Shown in pieces: positions 5,160-61,837 of a stretch of 64,000 nt of DNA (position 1 is its first letter; each line of letters opens with the position of its first letter). The translations under genes and the position numbers were made by a program. The notes below the pieces were generated by a model that was not told the DNA's origin, did not search any database, and saw only the letters and a program-made list of their open reading frames with translations. The stretch comes from Fuscovulum sp. (GTDB lineage Bacteria > Pseudomonadota > Alphaproteobacteria > Rhodobacterales > Rhodobacteraceae), in assembly GCA_035192965.1 (NCBI GenBank), contig CP136571.1, forward strand, positions 2,004,501-2,068,500, read 5' to 3'.

Positions 5160-5266
5160 TGGCCAAGCCCCTGTAAAGCCGTGAATTTCACCTCTGTCCG
5201 TTTCCGCTTGGACGCAAGGCCCAGACGGGCTACATCGCTGTGTCTGGTGAAACCGGGAGCGATGTC

Positions 5267-5728
5267 ATGGAATTCTTCACCCTGTTTCTGACCTATCTCG
5301 CTGCCTGCGGGGCGGCGGCGGCCACGGGAGCGCTGTTTCAGCCCGGCGACTGGTATCGCAGCCTGAACAAACCGCGCTGGACCCCGCCGGATTGGCTGTT
5401 TCCGGTGGCCTGGACGGTGCTTTATCTGTGCATGTCCACGGCAGCGGCGCGGGTCGCGATGATCGACGGCACAGGGCAGGCGCTGGCGCTGTGGTCGGTA
5501 CAGATTGCCCTTAACGCCTTGTGGACGCCCGTCTTTTTCGGCCTTCGCAGGCTCGGCGCTGGGCTGGTGATCATCTTCCTGCTCTGGCTGGCCGTGGCCG
5601 CCACGATGCTTGCCTTCTGGCAGGTGGACTGGATCGCTGGGCTGTTGTTCGCGCCCTACCTGCTTTGGGTGTCGATTGCCGGGGCGTTGAACCGGTCGGT
5701 CTGGGTGCGCAATCCAGTGACGGCGTAA
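5267..5728 (+). CDS. tspO: Tryptophan-rich sensory protein TspO
   Basis: TspO/MBR is an outer-membrane porphyrin-binding protein; in Rhodobacter it down-regulates photosynthesis gene expression under oxygen. The product has 153 residues, five hydrophobic helices and the family signatures LNKPRWTPPDWLFPVAWT and LNALWTPVFFGLRRL. The ATG at 5267 is preferred: it has GGGAG upstream and gives the normal MEFFTLFLTYLAACGA beginning. A GTG at 5240 would add nine residues. Its place between crtB and crtC is the conserved Rhodobacter position. Confidence 0.95.
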   Translation: MEFFTLFLTYLAACGAAAATGALFQPGDWYRSLNKPRWTPPDWLFPVAWTVLYLCMSTAAARVAMIDGTGQALALWSVQIALNALWTPVFFGLRRLGAGLVIIFLLWLAVAATMLAFWQVDWIAGLLFAPYLLWVSIAGALNRSVWVRNPVTA

Positions 5729-5771: not shown

Positions 5772-5815
5772 GTGCAGCGCGCGGTGCAGACACCTGTGCA
5801 GCAAGCCGTATGCAC
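5772..5815. repeat. 12-bp-period tandem repeat, GTGCAG-N6 type, copy 1
   Basis: GTGCAG occurs at 5772, 5784 and 5796, with a degenerate fourth unit (GTATGC) at 5808. Each unit is exactly 12 bp: GTGCAG plus six variable bases. It lies in the gap between the convergent tspO and crtC genes. A related array with the same period, in the opposite orientation, lies at 60716-60757. No function is known to me. Confidence 0.7.
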
Positions 5816-5866
5816 GGAGCGAACGGTCCAGGGCCGCCGCGCGCAACGGCATACAGAAACGCCAGA

Positions 5867-5910
5867 CAAAATTCTTCGAAGAATTTTGCAAATTCCTTCC
5901 AAGGAATTTG
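5867..5910. repeat. Two abutting 22-bp palindromes between tspO and crtC
   Basis: Positions 5867-5888 form a perfect 22-bp palindrome centred on TTCGAA. Positions 5889-5910 form a second one, with 10-bp arms CAAATTCCTT/AAGGAATTTG around CC. Together they end 2 bp before the crtC stop codon. The location between convergent genes suggests a bidirectional transcription end or paired mRNA 3' hairpins. Confidence 0.65.
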
Positions 5911-5912
5911 GG

Positions 5913-6722
5913 TCAGAAGCTCCACCCGCTGCGCCGTGGCACGCGCACGGCCAGCATCGGTTTCAGCAGCGGAGACCGGAACCGGGTCAGATCCAGCGCC
6001 TCATGCACGCCTTGCGTCACCTCACCCTCCAGCCGGGTTTCCACCACGCTGCGGCTGTAGAAAGGTGCATCCAGCATCGACATCACCTCGCGCGGGGTGG
6101 TGCCCACATCGGCACGGGTTTCGCGGCGGACCTGCCAGCGCGACCGGGCAAAGGCCGTGCGGGGCGGCGGCGCCACTTCGCGCGCCTCGCCCCCTGCAGT
6201 AACCTCCAGCCCGAAATCAAGGCGCGATCCGTCGCGGCGGATCGCGTCATAGATGCACAGCGCCCGGTCCTGCATCGGGAACCGGCCCCAGGTCCAGAAA
6301 TCGAAATCCGCCTCCAGCGCAGCGGTGCCGAAGTTTGCGTCGAAGTAGCCATGGCCTTCCCAGACATGGCCCTGCGTCAGGTTCACCGAGATATGGGCCA
6401 GCGGCGCAAACGGGCGCCAGACATGGCGCGGATGCAGCGCCAGTTCCACCCCGGTCACCGCGCTGGGCGTCAGCACGATCCGGCCCTTCACCGCGCTGAT
6501 GAGGGGCGGGGATGACACCTCGTCCACATCAATCACCAATTCCCGCCCTGTCCAGTGCATCCGGCTGGGGCCAAGCGTCAGGGTATCCGCGCTTTGGCGC
6601 AAGGCGCTGCGGCCCCGGTCCGTCATGGTAAAGCGCCCGCCCGGGCCATAGGTGGCGACATTCAGGCAGACATGGTTCTGCGGCTCGCGCCGCCCGGACC
6701 AGGCATACCAAGGCGAAAACAC
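5913..6722 (-). CDS. crtC: Carotenoid 1,2-hydratase (hydroxyneurosporene synthase)
   Basis: CrtC adds water across the C1-C2 double bond of neurosporene, giving hydroxyneurosporene on the way to spheroidene. From the first canonical start codon (GTG at 6722) the product has 269 residues, beginning VFSPWYAWSGRR. Family hallmarks follow: NVATYGPGGRFTMTDRG, WRPFAPLAHISVNL, GHGYFDANFGT, FDFWTWGRFP and MLDAPFYSRS. The family-like N-terminal segment DFRVEVGPDGYAWWYLD and DGVSDDGRR is also readable in this frame, but upstream, inside the end of crtD (about 6740-6830). No ATG, GTG, TTG or CTG exists in frame between 6723 and 7115; the next is an ATG at 7118. The true start is therefore unresolved, while the identity is secure. 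Confidence 0.85.
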   Translation of the reverse strand: MFSPWYAWSGRREPQNHVCLNVATYGPGGRFTMTDRGRSALRQSADTLTLGPSRMHWTGRELVIDVDEVSSPPLISAVKGRIVLTPSAVTGVELALHPRHVWRPFAPLAHISVNLTQGHVWEGHGYFDANFGTAALEADFDFWTWGRFPMQDRALCIYDAIRRDGSRLDFGLEVTAGGEAREVAPPPRTAFARSRWQVRRETRADVGTTPREVMSMLDAPFYSRSVVETRLEGEVTQGVHEALDLTRFRSPLLKPMLAVRVPRRSGWSF

Positions 6723-6736
6723 CGATCCGATGAACC

Positions 6737-8335
6737 CTATGACCGAGACCGCGCGCCGCCCGTCATCCGAGACACCGTCGAGATACCACCAGGCATAGCC
6801 ATCGGGGCCGACTTCGACCCGGAAATCCGGTCCTGCATGATCGCCGCGGCCGCGTGCATCGCGGAGAGGGCTGCCATCGGCACCCCCGCCCCCGGATGCG
6901 CCCCGCCCCCCGCCAGATACAGGCCCGGCAAGGCTGTTCGCGCGGGCGGGCGCTGGAAGGCCGCCATCATCCCTTCGGGCGAGCGCCCGTAGATCGCCCC
7001 CTGTGACGCCGGAAACAGACGGTTCAACTGTGCGGGCGTGGTCAACCCCGCGCTGTCGGGCAACGGGGAAAAGGTCAGCCCCATGCGGGACAGGTGATCG
7101 AAGGTCATGTGGCGGCATCGGGTGAAATCCTCGGGTCGCGCGGGCAGGCCAGCGGGGGCGTTCAGGATGATCTCGAATCGTTCGAGCGTGTTTGCGAAAG
7201 AGTGGGCGGGGGCGGGACCGCGGGCGCGGTCCTCGGCGCACAGGTAAAGGGTGGGGGCTTCCGGCATCTGCCCCTTGCCGATGGGGCCGAATTCACCCGC
7301 AGGATCATCGGTGAAGAACAGGTTGTGATGGATCAGATCCGCCGCCCGTTCCCCCTGCGGCGTTGCGGCAAAGGCCCAGACCAGCGCCGACAGGCTGGGC
7401 GGGCCGGCCGCGCGGGCCGGCAGGGCGGATTGCGCGGCATCCCCCAACAGCCCCGTGGTCAGCGCGGCAGGGTCACCGTTGAAGACGCAGGCACCGCAGG
7501 GCAGGGTGCGCCCGCCATCTATCTGCACCCCCGTCACCCGCCCGCTTTGCCGGGTGATGCGGGTGGCGGATGTGCCATAGCGGAACTGCACCCCCATGCG
7601 TTCGGCCAGTGCGGCCAGCGCAGCGGCAAGGTGGTGCATCCCCCCCTCAACCGCCCAGACCCCCCGCGCCTCGGCCCGCCAGATGAGCGACAGGACAGCC
7701 GGGGAATGGGCGGGCCTGCCGCCGACATAGGTTGCATAGCGCGCGAAAAGCTGGATCAGGCGCGGGTCGCGGAAATGCTTCCGCAGCAGCCCTTCCACCG
7801 TCAGACCGGGGCGCAGGGCAGGCCACAGGCGCGGCTGGCTCAGCGCGGCGCGGGCGATGGCGGGCAGGTCGGGACGGGCGGCCTGCATCACCGGCACGTC
7901 AAAGGCCCGGAACAGGGATTCGGTCAGCGCATCGAATCGCAAAAAGGCCTCTGCCTCGCGCGGGCCCGCAAAGGCGCGGATCGCATCGGCATTGGCCGCA
8001 CGGTCCGGCGTCAGGTCCAGCGCATCAGACCCCGGCCACCAGTGCCGCGCAAGGATGGGCTGGGGGATCAGCGTCAGGTGATCGTCGATCCGTTCGCCAT
8101 TCAACGCGAACAGCGCGTCAAACACATGCCGCATGGTCAGGACCGTTGGCCCCGTATCCACCGGACCGGCGGCTGAGGGCAGGGCGCGCGCCTTGCCACC
8201 CGGCGCATCGGCCCGTTCCAGCACCGTGACCGCAAGCCCCGCCGCCGCCAGACGGATGGCCGAGGCAAGGCCGCCCATCCCGGCACCGATGACGATGACG
8301 CGGTCGCGCGCGTCTTTTGCCTGCGGCTGTTCCAT
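6737..8335 (-). CDS. crtD: Hydroxyneurosporene / methoxyneurosporene desaturase
   Basis: CrtD is an FAD-dependent 3,4-desaturase, homologous to CrtI, acting after CrtC and CrtF. The start at 8335 (MEQPQAKDARDRVIVIGAG) is chosen because the upstream ATG at 8371 lies inside a PpsR box; either is possible. From 8335 the product is 532 residues. Motifs: the FAD-binding RVIVIGAGMGGLASAIRL near the N terminus, TGPTVLTM, and the C-terminal LYLAGGGAHPGAGVPM signature. After the expected family C terminus (HAAAAIMQDRIS) the frame runs on about 27 codons through DNA that also reads as CrtC in another frame. It is divergent from crtE. Confidence 0.93.
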   Translation of the reverse strand: MEQPQAKDARDRVIVIGAGMGGLASAIRLAAAGLAVTVLERADAPGGKARALPSAAGPVDTGPTVLTMRHVFDALFALNGERIDDHLTLIPQPILARHWWPGSDALDLTPDRAANADAIRAFAGPREAEAFLRFDALTESLFRAFDVPVMQAARPDLPAIARAALSQPRLWPALRPGLTVEGLLRKHFRDPRLIQLFARYATYVGGRPAHSPAVLSLIWRAEARGVWAVEGGMHHLAAALAALAERMGVQFRYGTSATRITRQSGRVTGVQIDGGRTLPCGACVFNGDPAALTTGLLGDAAQSALPARAAGPPSLSALVWAFAATPQGERAADLIHHNLFFTDDPAGEFGPIGKGQMPEAPTLYLCAEDRARGPAPAHSFANTLERFEIILNAPAGLPARPEDFTRCRHMTFDHLSRMGLTFSPLPDSAGLTTPAQLNRLFPASQGAIYGRSPEGMMAAFQRPPARTALPGLYLAGGGAHPGAGVPMAALSAMHAAAAIMQDRISGSKSAPMAMPGGISTVSRMTGGARSRS

Positions 8336-9353: not shown

Positions 9354-10489
9354 CAGACGCGGCCAGCGGGCCGGGTCTGCGCCCCGTGCGGGCTGCGCGG
9401 CAGCCATTGGCGGTGCGGCTGGGCCTTTCGGCGCGGTTCCATGCCATTTGCGCCCGCGTTCCCGGCCTGCGTCTGATCGCGCGGCGCGAGGGCGAGGCGC
9501 TGTTCGATGTCGTCTCCGGCTTCGTGCAATCGCAGGCACTGCTGGCGCTCGTGGAATTGCGCGTGCTGCACCGGCTGGCCGAAGGGCCTGCACCGCTGGC
9601 TGCACTGGCGGGGCCGGCAGGTGTGCCGCCGGCGCGGATGGCGGTGCTGTTGCAGGCGGGGGCGGGGCTTGGCCTGCTTGCGCAGAGGCGCGGAATTTGG
9701 CGGCTGACCGTGCGCGGCGCGGCGTTCCTGACAGTGCCGGGGCTGGAGGCGATGGTGCGCCATCACCCCGTGCTCTACCGCGATCTGGCCGATCCGGTGG
9801 CCTTCTTCCGGGGCGAGACACAGCCCGAACTGGCGCAGTTCTGGCCCTATGTCTTTGGTGCGGGCGGTGCGGCCGATCCGGCGCTGGCGCAGCGCTATTC
9901 CGATCTGATGGCCGACAGCCAGGGTCTGGTGGCGGCCGATACGCTGCGGCTGGTGGATTTTCGGGGCGTTCAGCATCTGATGGATGTGGGCGGCGGGACG
10001 GGGGCCTTTCTGGCCGCCGTGGGGGCCGCACATCCGGCCCTGCGCATGACGCTTTTCGATCTGCCTGCCGTGGTGCCGGGTGCCGTCGCGCGCTTTGCGT
10101 CGGCGGGGGTGTCGGATCGGGTGACCATCGTGCCGGGGTCTTTCCGCGATGATCCGCTGCCGCAAGGGGCCGATGCCATCTCGCTGGTGCGGGTGCTTTA
10201 CGACCATGCCGACGACACGATCACGGCGCTGTTACGGGCCGTGTTCACATCGCTCCCGCCAGGGGGCCGAGTCGTGGTGTCCGAGCCGATGTCCGGGGGG
10301 GATTCTCCGGACCGGGCAACCGATGTGTACTTTTCTGTTTACACTCTGGCCATGCAGACGGGGCGCACCCGGTCCGGGGCTGAGATTGCGCGTATGCTGC
10401 GGAATGCAGGCTTTTCGGACCCAATAATCCTTCAGGGTTTCCGACCTTTTGTCACCTCCGTGGTGACAGCCACGGTGCCTGCTGCCTAA
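9350..10489 (+). CDS. crtF: Demethylspheroidene O-methyltransferase
   Basis: CrtF transfers a methyl group from SAM to the 1-hydroxyl of hydroxyneurosporene or demethylspheroidene, giving the methoxy carotenoid. The product is 379 residues. The C-terminal half has a Rossmann SAM-binding motif [16 protein letters not shown] (about residues 209-224), then [13 protein letters not shown] and the post-motif [10 protein letters not shown]. It is coupled to crtE by an ATGA overlap. Its 3' region contains a PpsR box (10326-10343), and bchC follows after the bchC promoter. Confidence 0.95.
10326..10343. promoter_or_regulatory. PpsR/CrtJ box inside crtF
   Basis: TGTACTTTTCTGTTTACA is a perfect TGT-N12-ACA site within crtF coding sequence, about 180 bp upstream of the bchC promoter boxes. 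It could be an auxiliary site for looping onto the bchC promoter, or a chance AT-rich match. Confidence 0.6.
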
Positions 10490-58227: not shown

Positions 58228-59228
58228 TCATAGCTCAGCTTCGTGGCCTTGCCGCGGAAGATGAAATAGGCAAGCACCGTGTAGCCCATGATCACGGGCA
58301 GCACGAACAGCGTGCCGACAAGGATGATCGACAGGCTCTCGGTCGAGGCTGCCGCCTCCCAGATCGTCAACCGTTCCGGCACGATATAGGGGTAAAAGCT
58401 GTAGGCCATCCCGAAGAACCCCAGCACCATCAGCACCGTCGCCCCTGCAAAGGGAAACCAGGCGAAACTGTCATTCGCCGTCGGCAACCGCCGCAACGCC
58501 AGCCACAACAGCGCCACCAGCAGGCCTGACATCAACGGCAGCGGTGCCAGCGCCACCACTTCGGGAAAGCTGAACCATTTGTCAAAGATGCGCTGCGATA
58601 CCAGCGGCGTCGCAGCAGATACCGCCCCCATTCCCAGCACCACGCCCCAGATGCCGCCCTTGGCCCAATCCACCGCCTTGCGCTGCAACACCCCGTCGGT
58701 TTTCAGGATCACCCAGGCCGCCCCGATGAAGGAATAGGCCACCGCCAGCGCCCCCGCCGTCAGCGCGGCAAAGCCCACCTTGGCCCAGGTCCATTCCAGC
58801 CCCATCACATACATGCCCAGCATGAACCCCTGTGACAGCGCCGTCATCAACGACCCCGACCAGAACGCCACATCCCAGGGCCGCTTGTGCCCCAGCGGCG
58901 CCTTGGCGCGGAACTCGAACGCCACCCCGCGCAGGATCAGCCCGATCAGCATCACCGCCACCGGCAGATACAGCGCCGTCAGGATATCGCCATGCGCCAC
59001 CGGGAACGCCACCAAAAGCAACCCGATGGCCAGCACCAGCCATGTTTCATTCGCATCCCAGAACGGCCCGATCGAGGCGACCATGCGATCCCGCTCGGCC
59101 TCATCGGCAAAGGGGAACAACAGGCCCACCCCCAGATCGAACCCGTCCAGCACCACATAAAGCAGGATGGACACCCCCATCAGCGCGGCAAAGATCAACG
59201 GCAGGACTTCCGGATCAAACATCCCCAT
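58224..59228 (-). CDS. cydB: Cytochrome bd-type quinol oxidase subunit II
   Basis: This is the second subunit of the cyanide-insensitive-type bd oxidase, an oxygen-reducing quinol oxidase of the inner membrane. The product is 334 residues with about eight helices. LIFAALMGVSILLYVVLDGFDLGVG, WDANETWLVLAIGLLLVAFP and FWSGSLMTALSQGFMLG are family segments. The ATG shares its first base with the cydA stop (TGATG). No cydX-like ORF is seen downstream, since the gene meets a convergent stop. Confidence 0.95.
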   Translation of the reverse strand: MGMFDPEVLPLIFAALMGVSILLYVVLDGFDLGVGLLFPFADEAERDRMVASIGPFWDANETWLVLAIGLLLVAFPVAHGDILTALYLPVAVMLIGLILRGVAFEFRAKAPLGHKRPWDVAFWSGSLMTALSQGFMLGMYVMGLEWTWAKVGFAALTAGALAVAYSFIGAAWVILKTDGVLQRKAVDWAKGGIWGVVLGMGAVSAATPLVSQRIFDKWFSFPEVVALAPLPLMSGLLVALLWLALRRLPTANDSFAWFPFAGATVLMVLGFFGMAYSFYPYIVPERLTIWEAAASTESLSIILVGTLFVLPVIMGYTVLAYFIFRGKATKLSYD

Positions 59229-60586
59229 CACTCCGCAGGCTGCATGCCGGGGCTTGTGACGGGGGCCGAAAGCACCCCGCCTTTGCGCGCCAGATGAAAG
59301 ATCACGCCGACATAGGCCGCCAGCAGCGCCACATAGATCGCAAGATAGGCCAGCAGCGTCGACAGTACCATTCCGGCTGCGATGTCACCCACCGCCTGTT
59401 TCGTCGTCAGCACCCCCTGCACCAGCCAGGGCTGACGGCCGATCTCGGTCGTGTACCACCCGGCCAGCGTCGCCAGCCACCCGGCAAAGGTCATGGCCGT
59501 CACCCCCATCAGATAGGGCCGGGGCAGCGCCTCAACCCCACGGCGCCAGATCAGGAACATCCCCGCCCAGGCCACCACCAGCATCGCCATGCCCGTTGCC
59601 ACCATCACCCGGAACGACCAGAACACAGGCGCCACCGGCGGGTGCATCACGGTGCCATCCTCGGCCACGAAATCATTCAGCCCCGGCACCACCCCCGCAG
59701 GGTCATGCTTCAGGATCACAGATGCCATCGACGGAATCCCAATCTCGAACCGGTTTTCGCGCGCCGCCTCATCCGGCAGGGCGAAGAGCAGCAACGGCAC
59801 ATTGCCCTGCGTCTCCCAGTTGCCCTCCATCGCCGCCACTTTCTGCGGCTGATGCTCCAGCGTGTTCAGCCCGTGCATGTCGCCCGCCAAAATCTGAATG
59901 GGCATCAGTACCGCACCAATCATCAACCCCACGCGCAGCCCCGTTGCCACCGCCGGATCGCGGTCATGGCGCAACATGCGATAGGCCGACAGACCGGCAA
60001 TCAGGAAGGCCACGGTCAACCCGCTCGCCAACAGCATATGCACCAACCGGTACGGCATCGACGGGTTGAAGATGATCGCCCACCAGTCGGTGGCAAACAC
60101 GATCCCGTCGCGCAGCTCATACCCCGCCGGCGTATGCATCCAGCTGTTCAGCACCAGAATCCAGAACGCGCTCATCGTGGTGCCAAAGGCCACAAGGAAC
60201 GTCGCCAACGTGTGCAGCCATCCCGGCACCCGGCTTGCACCAAACAGCATGATCCCCAGGAACACCGCCTCAAGGAAGAAGGCTGTCAGCACCTCGTAGG
60301 CCAGCAACGGCCCCGCCACATTCCCCACCGTCTCCATGAAGCCCGGCCAGTTGGTGCCGAACTGGAACGACATGGTGATCCCCGACACCACCCCAAGGGC
60401 AAAGGACAAAGCAAAAACCTTCACCCAGAACATGTACAAGTTCATCCATTTCCGGTCCCCCGTCCGGGCAAAGCGCAGCTTGAAGAACAAGAGCACCCAT
60501 CCCAGCGCGATGGTGATCGTGGGAAACAGAATGTGGAACGAAATGTTGGCTGCAAACTGCATGCGCGAAAGTATCAGGGTATCCAT
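59228..60586 (-). CDS. cydA: Cytochrome bd-type quinol oxidase subunit I
   Basis: This is subunit I of the bd/CIO oxidase, binding haems b and d. The product is 452 residues with nine helices. SRMQFAANISFHILFPTITIALG carries a haem histidine, and LHTLATFLVAFGTTMSAFWIL and the quinol-loop start PIQILAGDMHG are visible. The Q-loop is short, typical of the CioA type. It heads cydAB. About 130 bp upstream lies the GTGCAG-type tandem repeat. Confidence 0.95.
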   Translation of the reverse strand: MDTLILSRMQFAANISFHILFPTITIALGWVLLFFKLRFARTGDRKWMNLYMFWVKVFALSFALGVVSGITMSFQFGTNWPGFMETVGNVAGPLLAYEVLTAFFLEAVFLGIMLFGASRVPGWLHTLATFLVAFGTTMSAFWILVLNSWMHTPAGYELRDGIVFATDWWAIIFNPSMPYRLVHMLLASGLTVAFLIAGLSAYRMLRHDRDPAVATGLRVGLMIGAVLMPIQILAGDMHGLNTLEHQPQKVAAMEGNWETQGNVPLLLFALPDEAARENRFEIGIPSMASVILKHDPAGVVPGLNDFVAEDGTVMHPPVAPVFWSFRVMVATGMAMLVVAWAGMFLIWRRGVEALPRPYLMGVTAMTFAGWLATLAGWYTTEIGRQPWLVQGVLTTKQAVGDIAAGMVLSTLLAYLAIYVALLAAYVGVIFHLARKGGVLSAPVTSPGMQPAE

Positions 60587-60715
60587 GACTCACCTTTCTG
60601 ATTGCCCGTGATCTAGGGGCGATAAAGGCGGATACGAGGGGTCTGCGACGGGCTGCCCCATGCGACAGCCTGTCAGATCGAATCGTGGTTAACAAAGAAA
60701 TTCCGCACCGCGCGT

Positions 60716-60757
60716 ATGCACAGCTGTCTGCACCGCCATCTGCACCGGGCGCTGCAT
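60716..60757. repeat. 12-bp-period tandem repeat, GTGCAG-N6 type, copy 2
   Basis: CTGCAC-type hexamers at 60716 (ATGCAC), 60728, 60740 and 60752 (CTGCAT) repeat with an exact 12-bp period; on the minus strand they read GTGCAG-N6. Spacers also resemble copy 1 (for example CGCCCG here, CGCGCG there). It lies in the 237-bp gap between cydA and moaA, upstream of cydA. Confidence 0.7.
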
Positions 60758-60823: not shown

Positions 60824-61837
60824 TTAACCGCCGGTATGGCTCATATGCCGCGACATCTTCCCCTGCACCCCGGCGCGGGAATAGTCGAAATCATGCCCCT
60901 TGGGCTTTTTCGCAATCGCGGCACGGATCGCCGCCTCCACCACCGCATCCTCCGGGCTCGCCCGCAGCGGCCCGCGCAGATCGGCCATATCCTCTTGGCC
61001 CAGGCACATGTACAATTCGCCCGTGCAGGTCAGCCGCACCCGGTTGCAGCTTTCACAGAAGTTATGCGTCAGGGGCGTGATGAAGCCCACCTTCTGCCCC
61101 GTCTCCCCCAACCGGACATAGCGCGCAGGCCCCCCCGACCGCTCGGCCAGATCGGTCAGCGCAAACCGCTCCGCCAACCGCGCCCGCAGGTCTTTCAACG
61201 ACCAATACTGATCAAGCCGGTCCTCATTGCCCAGATCGCCCATCGGCATGACCTCGATGAAGGTCAGATCGTGGCCTTCTGCTGCGCACCAGTCAACCAG
61301 TTGAAAAAGCTCATCTTCGTTGAACCCTTTCAGCGCCACGGTGTTGATCTTCACCCGCAGCCCGGCCTCTTTCGCGGCCTCGATCCCGTCCAGAACCTGC
61401 GCCAACCGCCCCCAGCGGGTGATCTTGGCGAACTTGTCCGCGTCCAGCGTGTCCAGCGACACATTGATCCGCCGCACCCCACATTCGGCCAACTCGGCGG
61501 CATGTTTGCGCAATTGCGACCCATTGGTCGTCAGCGTCAATTCCTTCAGCGCGCCGCTCTCCAGATGCCTCGACATGGCACGAAAGAAGGTCATGATCCC
61601 CTTGCGCACCAAGGGCTCCCCCCCGGTGATCCGCAGCTTTTCCACCCCCAGCCGGACGAAGGCCGAACAAAGCCGGTCCAGCTCCTCCAGCGACAAGAGG
61701 TCCGCCTTGGGCAGAAAAGTCATGTTCTCCGCCATGCAATAGACACAGCGGAAATCGCAGCGATCCGTCACCGACACCCGCAAATAGGAAATCGGTCGGG
61801 CAAACGGGTCAATCAGCGGGGCAGGGCGCGCATCCAT
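60824..61837 (-). CDS. moaA: GTP 3',8-cyclase (molybdenum cofactor synthesis)
   Basis: MoaA is a radical-SAM enzyme converting GTP to 3',8-cyclo-GTP, the first step of molybdenum cofactor synthesis. The product is 337 residues. The N-terminal [11 protein letters not shown] holds the SAM cluster, [11 protein letters not shown] follows, and the C-terminal cluster cysteines lie in [20 protein letters not shown]. It ends in the activity-required Gly-Gly (HTGG). Confidence 0.96.

Follow-up and report, generated by a model that had tools for sequence, protein, structure and literature searches.

A dispersed family of strand-polar GTGCAG arrays evolving in concert in one genus of Rhodobacteraceae

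The genome of Fuscovulum sp. carries a short direct-repeat array, built from GTGCAG units, at about 79 dispersed loci. The arrays are oriented with the local GC skew, their positions are old, and their sequences are species-specific and evolve in concert; at one locus an array is present in one clade only. We tentatively propose that the family is a dispersed repeat of a REP/BIME-like kind, which a putative factor inserts into, and homogenises on, the lagging-strand template. Most short dispersed repeats of bacteria are palindromes that known single-strand transposases mobilise; this array family has neither feature. Strand polarity, spacing and concerted evolution are combined in it.

The window, that is, the whole 64-kb stretch analysed here, spans positions 2,004,501-2,068,500 of a genome assembled as a single contig of 4.23 Mb. 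Two arrays are found in it, and the coordinates below are those of the window.

5240-5728, + strand: tspO, ending upstream of array 1 (PF03073, E 1.1e-43)
5772-5777, + strand: array 1, unit 1, GTGCAG
5784-5789, + strand: array 1, unit 2, GTGCAG
5796-5801, + strand: array 1, unit 3, GTGCAG
5808-5815, + strand: array 1, terminal unit GTATGCAC (GT-N4-AC), subfamily A; the same end in 35 of 77 parsed arrays of this genome, and species alignment
5816-5829, + strand: array 1, subfamily A tail GGAGCGAACGGTCC (consensus GCAGCGnACGGt), from column conservation over 37 type-A elements
5913-7241, - strand: crtC, convergent with tspO (NF045922, E 2.6e-147)
59228-60586, - strand: cydA, starting downstream of array 2 (PF01654, E 1.2e-157)
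60688-60713, - strand: array 2, subfamily B tail GCGCGGTGC...GTTAAC, from the consensus; the same tail at the moaA/cydA locus in most species
60714-60721, - strand: array 2, terminal unit GTGCATAC (GT-N4-AC), subfamily B; the same end in 41 of 77 parsed arrays of this genome
60728-60733, - strand: array 2, unit 3, GTGCAG
60740-60745, - strand: array 2, unit 2, GTGCAG
60752-60757, - strand: array 2, unit 1, ATGCAG
60824-61837, - strand: moaA, ending upstream of array 2 (TIGR02666, E 9e-111)

The original prediction described a four-unit array at each site. Both arrays are present and the step between their units is exactly 12 bp, but only two of the four units of array 2 are exact GTGCAG. The fourth unit of array 1 had been called degenerate; instead, the largest subfamily normally has GTATGCAC as its fourth unit. 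Both arrays are indeed intergenic, array 1 lying in the tspO/crtC gap and array 2 in the moaA/cydA gap, as judged from the profile matches of the neighbours. The NF045922 match on the crtC open reading frame covers residues 167-441 only, and the true start of crtC is therefore probably downstream of the start of that frame. Matches to the loose pattern are near chance in the window (15 against 10.1 expected). A third exact pair of units, at 9588-9605 on the - strand, has no tail, lies inside a predicted coding sequence and is treated as chance. The tspO/crtC gap also holds the palindromes CAAAATTCTTCGAAGAATTTTG and AAATTCCTTCCAAGGAATTT (window 5860-5930), and a near-identical pair occurs 3′ of the array at another locus, L032; these look like a separate dispersed palindromic repeat.

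Over the whole genome, GTGCAG-N6-GTGCAG gives 144 exact two-unit matches compared with one for the reversed pattern, and the exact three-unit pattern gives 102 matches compared with none for the reversed control, an excess over chance of the kind anticipated. These matches resolve to the 79 or so loci. The element consists of three or four units (GTGCAG or GTGCCG) followed by a terminal GT-N4-AC unit and then by a tail of one of a few types; the array portion is about 45 bp long, and in some elements a variant first unit precedes two exact ones. It is non-palindromic, noncoding and mostly intergenic. Tandem copies of the whole element, 116 bp apart, occur in this genome and in that of a relative, G002. 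Literature searches for a described motif of this form found nothing. The tails fall into four subfamilies.

Subfamily A, 37 elements: GTATGCACGCAGCGnACGGt
Subfamily B, 13 elements: GTGCATACGCrCGG...GTTAA
Subfamily C, 18 elements: GTGCATACAAATttgggcAG...TGGTTAAgGGTGCG
Subfamily D, 11 elements: first unit GTGCCG, B-like tail

Sets of arrays occur in 11 of the 19 genomes of the GTDB genus, one of purple-type bacteria, with the window's species counted as two genomes. Six of them (G000, the window's genome, with G061, G001, G005, G014 and G017) use the GTGCAG dialect and five (G002, G006, G008, G010 and G012) mainly GTGCCG. The carriers include Rhodobacter ruber, R. amnigenus and Fuscovulum ytuae. 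We take G005 as R. ruber CCP-1, G006 as R. amnigenus HSP-20, G008 as Tabrizicola sp. TH137, G010 as the MAG Clear-D3 and G014 as R. kunshanensis HX-7-19, and from its dialect and its plasmid we infer G002 to be F. ytuae. Eight sister species (G003, G004, G007, G009, G011, G013, G015 and G016) have no set, with at most one match each. The match counts per genome are of pattern windows rather than elements, and several of the genomes are MAGs; the array maps cover G000, from pattern matches, and 400 kb of G002. In about 390 other genera of the family, each sampled by one genome, matches are isolated and single at best, no different from the reversed control. Among plasmids, only that of F. ytuae bears arrays: on NZ_CP124537, one lies 76 bp downstream of the plasmid parB (L469:16943) and a second at about 153.7 kb. 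At least 120 stretches of viral contigs matched, nearly all by one match of a 17-base pattern; these are counted as background, phage records gave none, and a viral source was rejected.

Steps between units usually measure 12 bp; in G001, G014 and G017 a step of 13 bp often separates units 2 and 3. The fixed period slightly above one helical turn had suggested binding by an oligomeric protein; since 13-bp steps recur in several species, strict helical phasing is unneeded. The same steps bear on the idea that the arrays are small coding sequences with a tetrapeptide repeat (V-P/Q-x-x), to which we give hardly any probability. Twelve base pairs do make up four codons, one frame is open through several of the arrays, translation runs through the two that lie within genes, and the V-x-T codon pattern of the terminal unit looked promising. 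However, at several loci in these three genomes the frame is lost at the 7-nt spacers that accompany 13-bp steps, the last G of CAG, a partly degenerate codon position, is fixed, and the spacer codons vary at non-synonymous positions.

With a simple codon-usage gene caller, 32 of the 79 arrays in the window's genome lie in convergent gaps, 36 in tandem and 10 in divergent ones, and one has no assigned context; a gene on the same strand precedes 53. Only two are inside genes, both in frame, in agreement with the expectation that the arrays would lie between genes. That the arrays are sites of putative protein binding is plausible. It is improbable, though, that they are transcription-factor operators of direct-repeat type with a regulon including cydA, tspO and crtC. 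Array 2 is about 130 bp upstream of cydA, and direct repeats with a terminal GT-N4-AC unit resemble protein sites; against this, divergent gaps hold only 10 arrays and convergent gene ends 32, array 1 sits between two 3′ ends, the array at locus L013 separates two genes that abut in species without it, and the orientation of arrays ignores genes. A link to the regulation of tspO, crtC or cydA in particular finds no support, because these are only two of about 79 positions and the divergent, promoter-type gap is the rarest context.

An element acting at the RNA level (a 3′-UTR motif, a terminator or a regulatory RNA) is equally improbable in our judgement. The preceding same-strand gene at 53 of 79 arrays would suit it, as would the few type-A tails of other species that run into a terminator-like hairpin. 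But arrays share the strand of the local genes no more often than chance would give (38 of 79), and the element shows no stable fold, with DNA fold z-scores of 0.2 to 1.3 and no excess as RNA either. Alignment folding yields isolated TGCA-TGCA pairs only and no covarying structure, and Rfam has no match in the window. A structured RNA, one of the readings first offered, is thus disfavoured by both the folding and the orientation. The hairpins in question follow the type-A tail at locus L031 in G002, G006, G008 and G010 (in G006, GCGAACGCTTC...GAAGCGTTCGC).

What the orientation does follow is GC skew. With the skew taken over the surrounding 5 kb and the array excluded, array orientation equals its sign in 77 of 79 cases in G000, including all 41 where most of the local gene sequence is on the opposite strand. 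The agreement over seven species is 148 of 151 arrays. A scan of a contiguous 400-kb stretch of G002 with a relaxed consensus gave 12 elements, every one of them oriented with the skew, also through a switch within 14 kb at about 1.70 Mb. The arrays occupy the G-rich strand, and their polarity probably reflects the direction of replication, with GC skew as a proxy for the replication strand. The skew is stronger around arrays than in gaps sampled between them, which fits old core DNA. In G002:C1:1,400,000-1,800,000 the skew sign changes about four times within 400 kb, which suggests several inversions there.

The arrays are also evenly spaced. Apart from the one 116-bp tandem pair, the closest arrays in G000 are 7.7 kb apart; no gap is shorter than 7.5 kb, compared with 10.0 expected under uniform placement (P<5e-5, an approximate value because the null is uniform rather than restricted to intergenic DNA). 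The coefficient of variation of the spacing is 0.79, compared with 0.99 under uniform placement.

The sequences of the arrays vary by species more than by locus. Spacers of paralogs within one species are 0.58 identical and those of orthologs between clades 0.37, the latter matching unrelated arrays between clades (0.36), where clades were assigned by dialect and not by tree. The species effect on spacers was reached in 0 of 1000 permutations, while a weaker effect of locus, mainly within clades, was reached in 8 of 1000. Spacers are moreover specific to their position within the array: in G000, identity is 0.54 at the same index and 0.35 at other indices (0 of 300 permutations), with the same pattern in G005, G008 and G017 and, at 2 of 300 permutations, in G002. 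Units within one array are no more alike than units from different arrays. Together these two observations imply that the array was copied or co-selected whole, and did not grow by duplication of units. In most ortholog comparisons the GTGC core keeps an identity of 93-99%, unlike the spacers, partly by construction since the parser requires part of the core.

In contrast to the sequences, positions are retained across species whose flanks, still orthologous, align at about 70%. Counterparts of the tspO/crtC array can be recognised in nine other species, in a degenerate form in G005; those of the moaA/cydA array can be recognised in eight, and G012 has none. The positions at L013, L016 and L031 are equally widely occupied. 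Because the seven loci compared are occupied in nearly all array-bearing species, present-day jumping is rare. At L013, G003, G011 and G013 have a clean empty site in which the two flanking genes abut. A methyltransferase-like gene contains an in-frame array in G000, G061, G001, G014 and G017 and is uninterrupted in G010, G005, G008 and G002, all of which bear arrays elsewhere.

L040, about 2530 (G000:C1:1,315,629): array in the methyltransferase-like gene, a 36-54 bp insertion translated near the C-terminus

Either this site was newly invaded within the array-bearing group, or its array was cleanly lost from the four others. No target duplication was seen at arrays. The mobile repeat family suggested at the outset gains support from the number of loci, the shared tails, the clean empty sites and this clade-specific insertion. 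Likewise, a conserved protein with the ending MQKLxDKFR includes, close to its C-terminus, an array translated in frame in four species (L036, L112, L137 and L140).

How could such a family arise? We propose that a trans-acting, sequence-specific factor would recognise the GTGCMG units, probably on the single-stranded lagging-strand template, and would copy or convert arrays in place and occasionally into new sites. In-place copying with occasional insertion would explain why the arrays are strand-polar, why each species has its dialect and how insertions like that in the methyltransferase-like gene came about. Two candidate partners were rejected. A RAYT is disfavoured since the Y1 transposase profile PF01797 has no match above cut-off in any of the 19 genus genomes, with controls including E. 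coli and Caulobacter positive; reverse transcriptase (PF00078) is found among the 19 only in G010, G014 and G017 and does not track the arrays. The lack of a hairpin and of target duplications, and the rarity of present-day jumping, also count against the copying model. So does the even spacing, which free insertion would not be expected to yield in the absence of target immunity. That the arrays are evenly spaced and have been retained for long suggests that they may serve the host in some selected way.

The main rival, possible but to our mind less probable, is that the arrays are selected polar chromosome sites with a role like that of FtsK-orienting (KOPS), Chi, matS or Noc sites. A putative genus-specific DNA-binding protein would occupy the GTGCMG units as tandem protomers, the sites would co-evolve with the protein, and the orientation of an array would signal the direction of the replichore to a translocase, nuclease or organiser. 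In favour of this reading are the strand polarity (148 of 151), the lack of gaps below 7.5 kb outside the tandem pair, the positions kept across diverged flanks, the better conservation of the GTGC core (in part a product of the parser) and the arrays on the F. ytuae plasmid, one of them 76 bp after parB. On the other hand, a single protein that reads identical units does not predict spacer dialects specific to the position within the array; eight species of the genus do without arrays; arrays persist in skew-inverted segments, so that correct polarity is not strictly required; and one array in about 50 kb is sparse for KOPS or Chi. The copying model and the selected-site model are not mutually exclusive. 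A more elaborate combination, which we regard as unlikely in its full form, would be a new replication-polar chromosome site: some 80 or more arrays at even distances on the leading strand, whose sequence a dedicated system of single-strand copying or conversion would rewrite throughout the genome in each species and which would co-evolve with a reader protein. The family is a compact system for asking how dispersed noncoding DNA is homogenised across a bacterial chromosome. Since some sister species carry arrays and others do not, comparing their gene content offers a clean way to look for the factor.

Among known systems, the arrays most readily call to mind REP, BIME and REPIN sequences with their RAYT (TnpA-REP), which are likewise short, mostly extragenic, present in tens to hundreds of copies and organised in species-specific families (PMC3116915, PMC6006769). 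The single-strand mobilising enzymes of REPs favour the lagging-strand template, as do members of the Y1 family (PMC6006769), which would be a further likeness. REPs are palindromic and extragenic (PMC3116915). The arrays are mostly extragenic, of high copy number and species-specific in sequence; nevertheless they are not REPs, having no palindrome and no Y1 transposase. In place of a hairpin with a GT[AG]G foot they have a direct 12/13-bp array, and unlike REPs and REPINs they are evenly spaced and almost fully polar in orientation, in a genus without a Y1 transposase.

Other systems share single features with the arrays. Rickettsia palindromic elements and some other repeats insert in frame in genes, similar to the two arrays translated in frame, one of which is a clean clade-specific insertion; however, the arrays are non-palindromic and almost all copies are intergenic. 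Caulobacter-type GANTC intergenic repeats are dispersed between genes in Alphaproteobacteria too, and some array tails carry GTTAACC and GAGTC or GAATC; to our knowledge, the GTGCMG array, which defines the family here, is not part of the described repeats of that type. In being co-oriented with the leading strand, by the GC-skew proxy, the arrays resemble FtsK-orienting KOPS and other architecture-imparting polar sequences. KOPS are single 8-mers, far denser and broadly conserved, whereas the array is 45 bp long, limited to one genus and divided into species dialects. Finally, the operators of CarH/LitR, TubR and ParR consist of direct repeats in tandem, 11-12 bp each, to which several protomers bind; their period is similar to that of the arrays, and no protein of these kinds was linked to the arrays. 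Those systems have one or few operators or centromeres, in contrast to about 80 arrays that are polar and evolve in concert.
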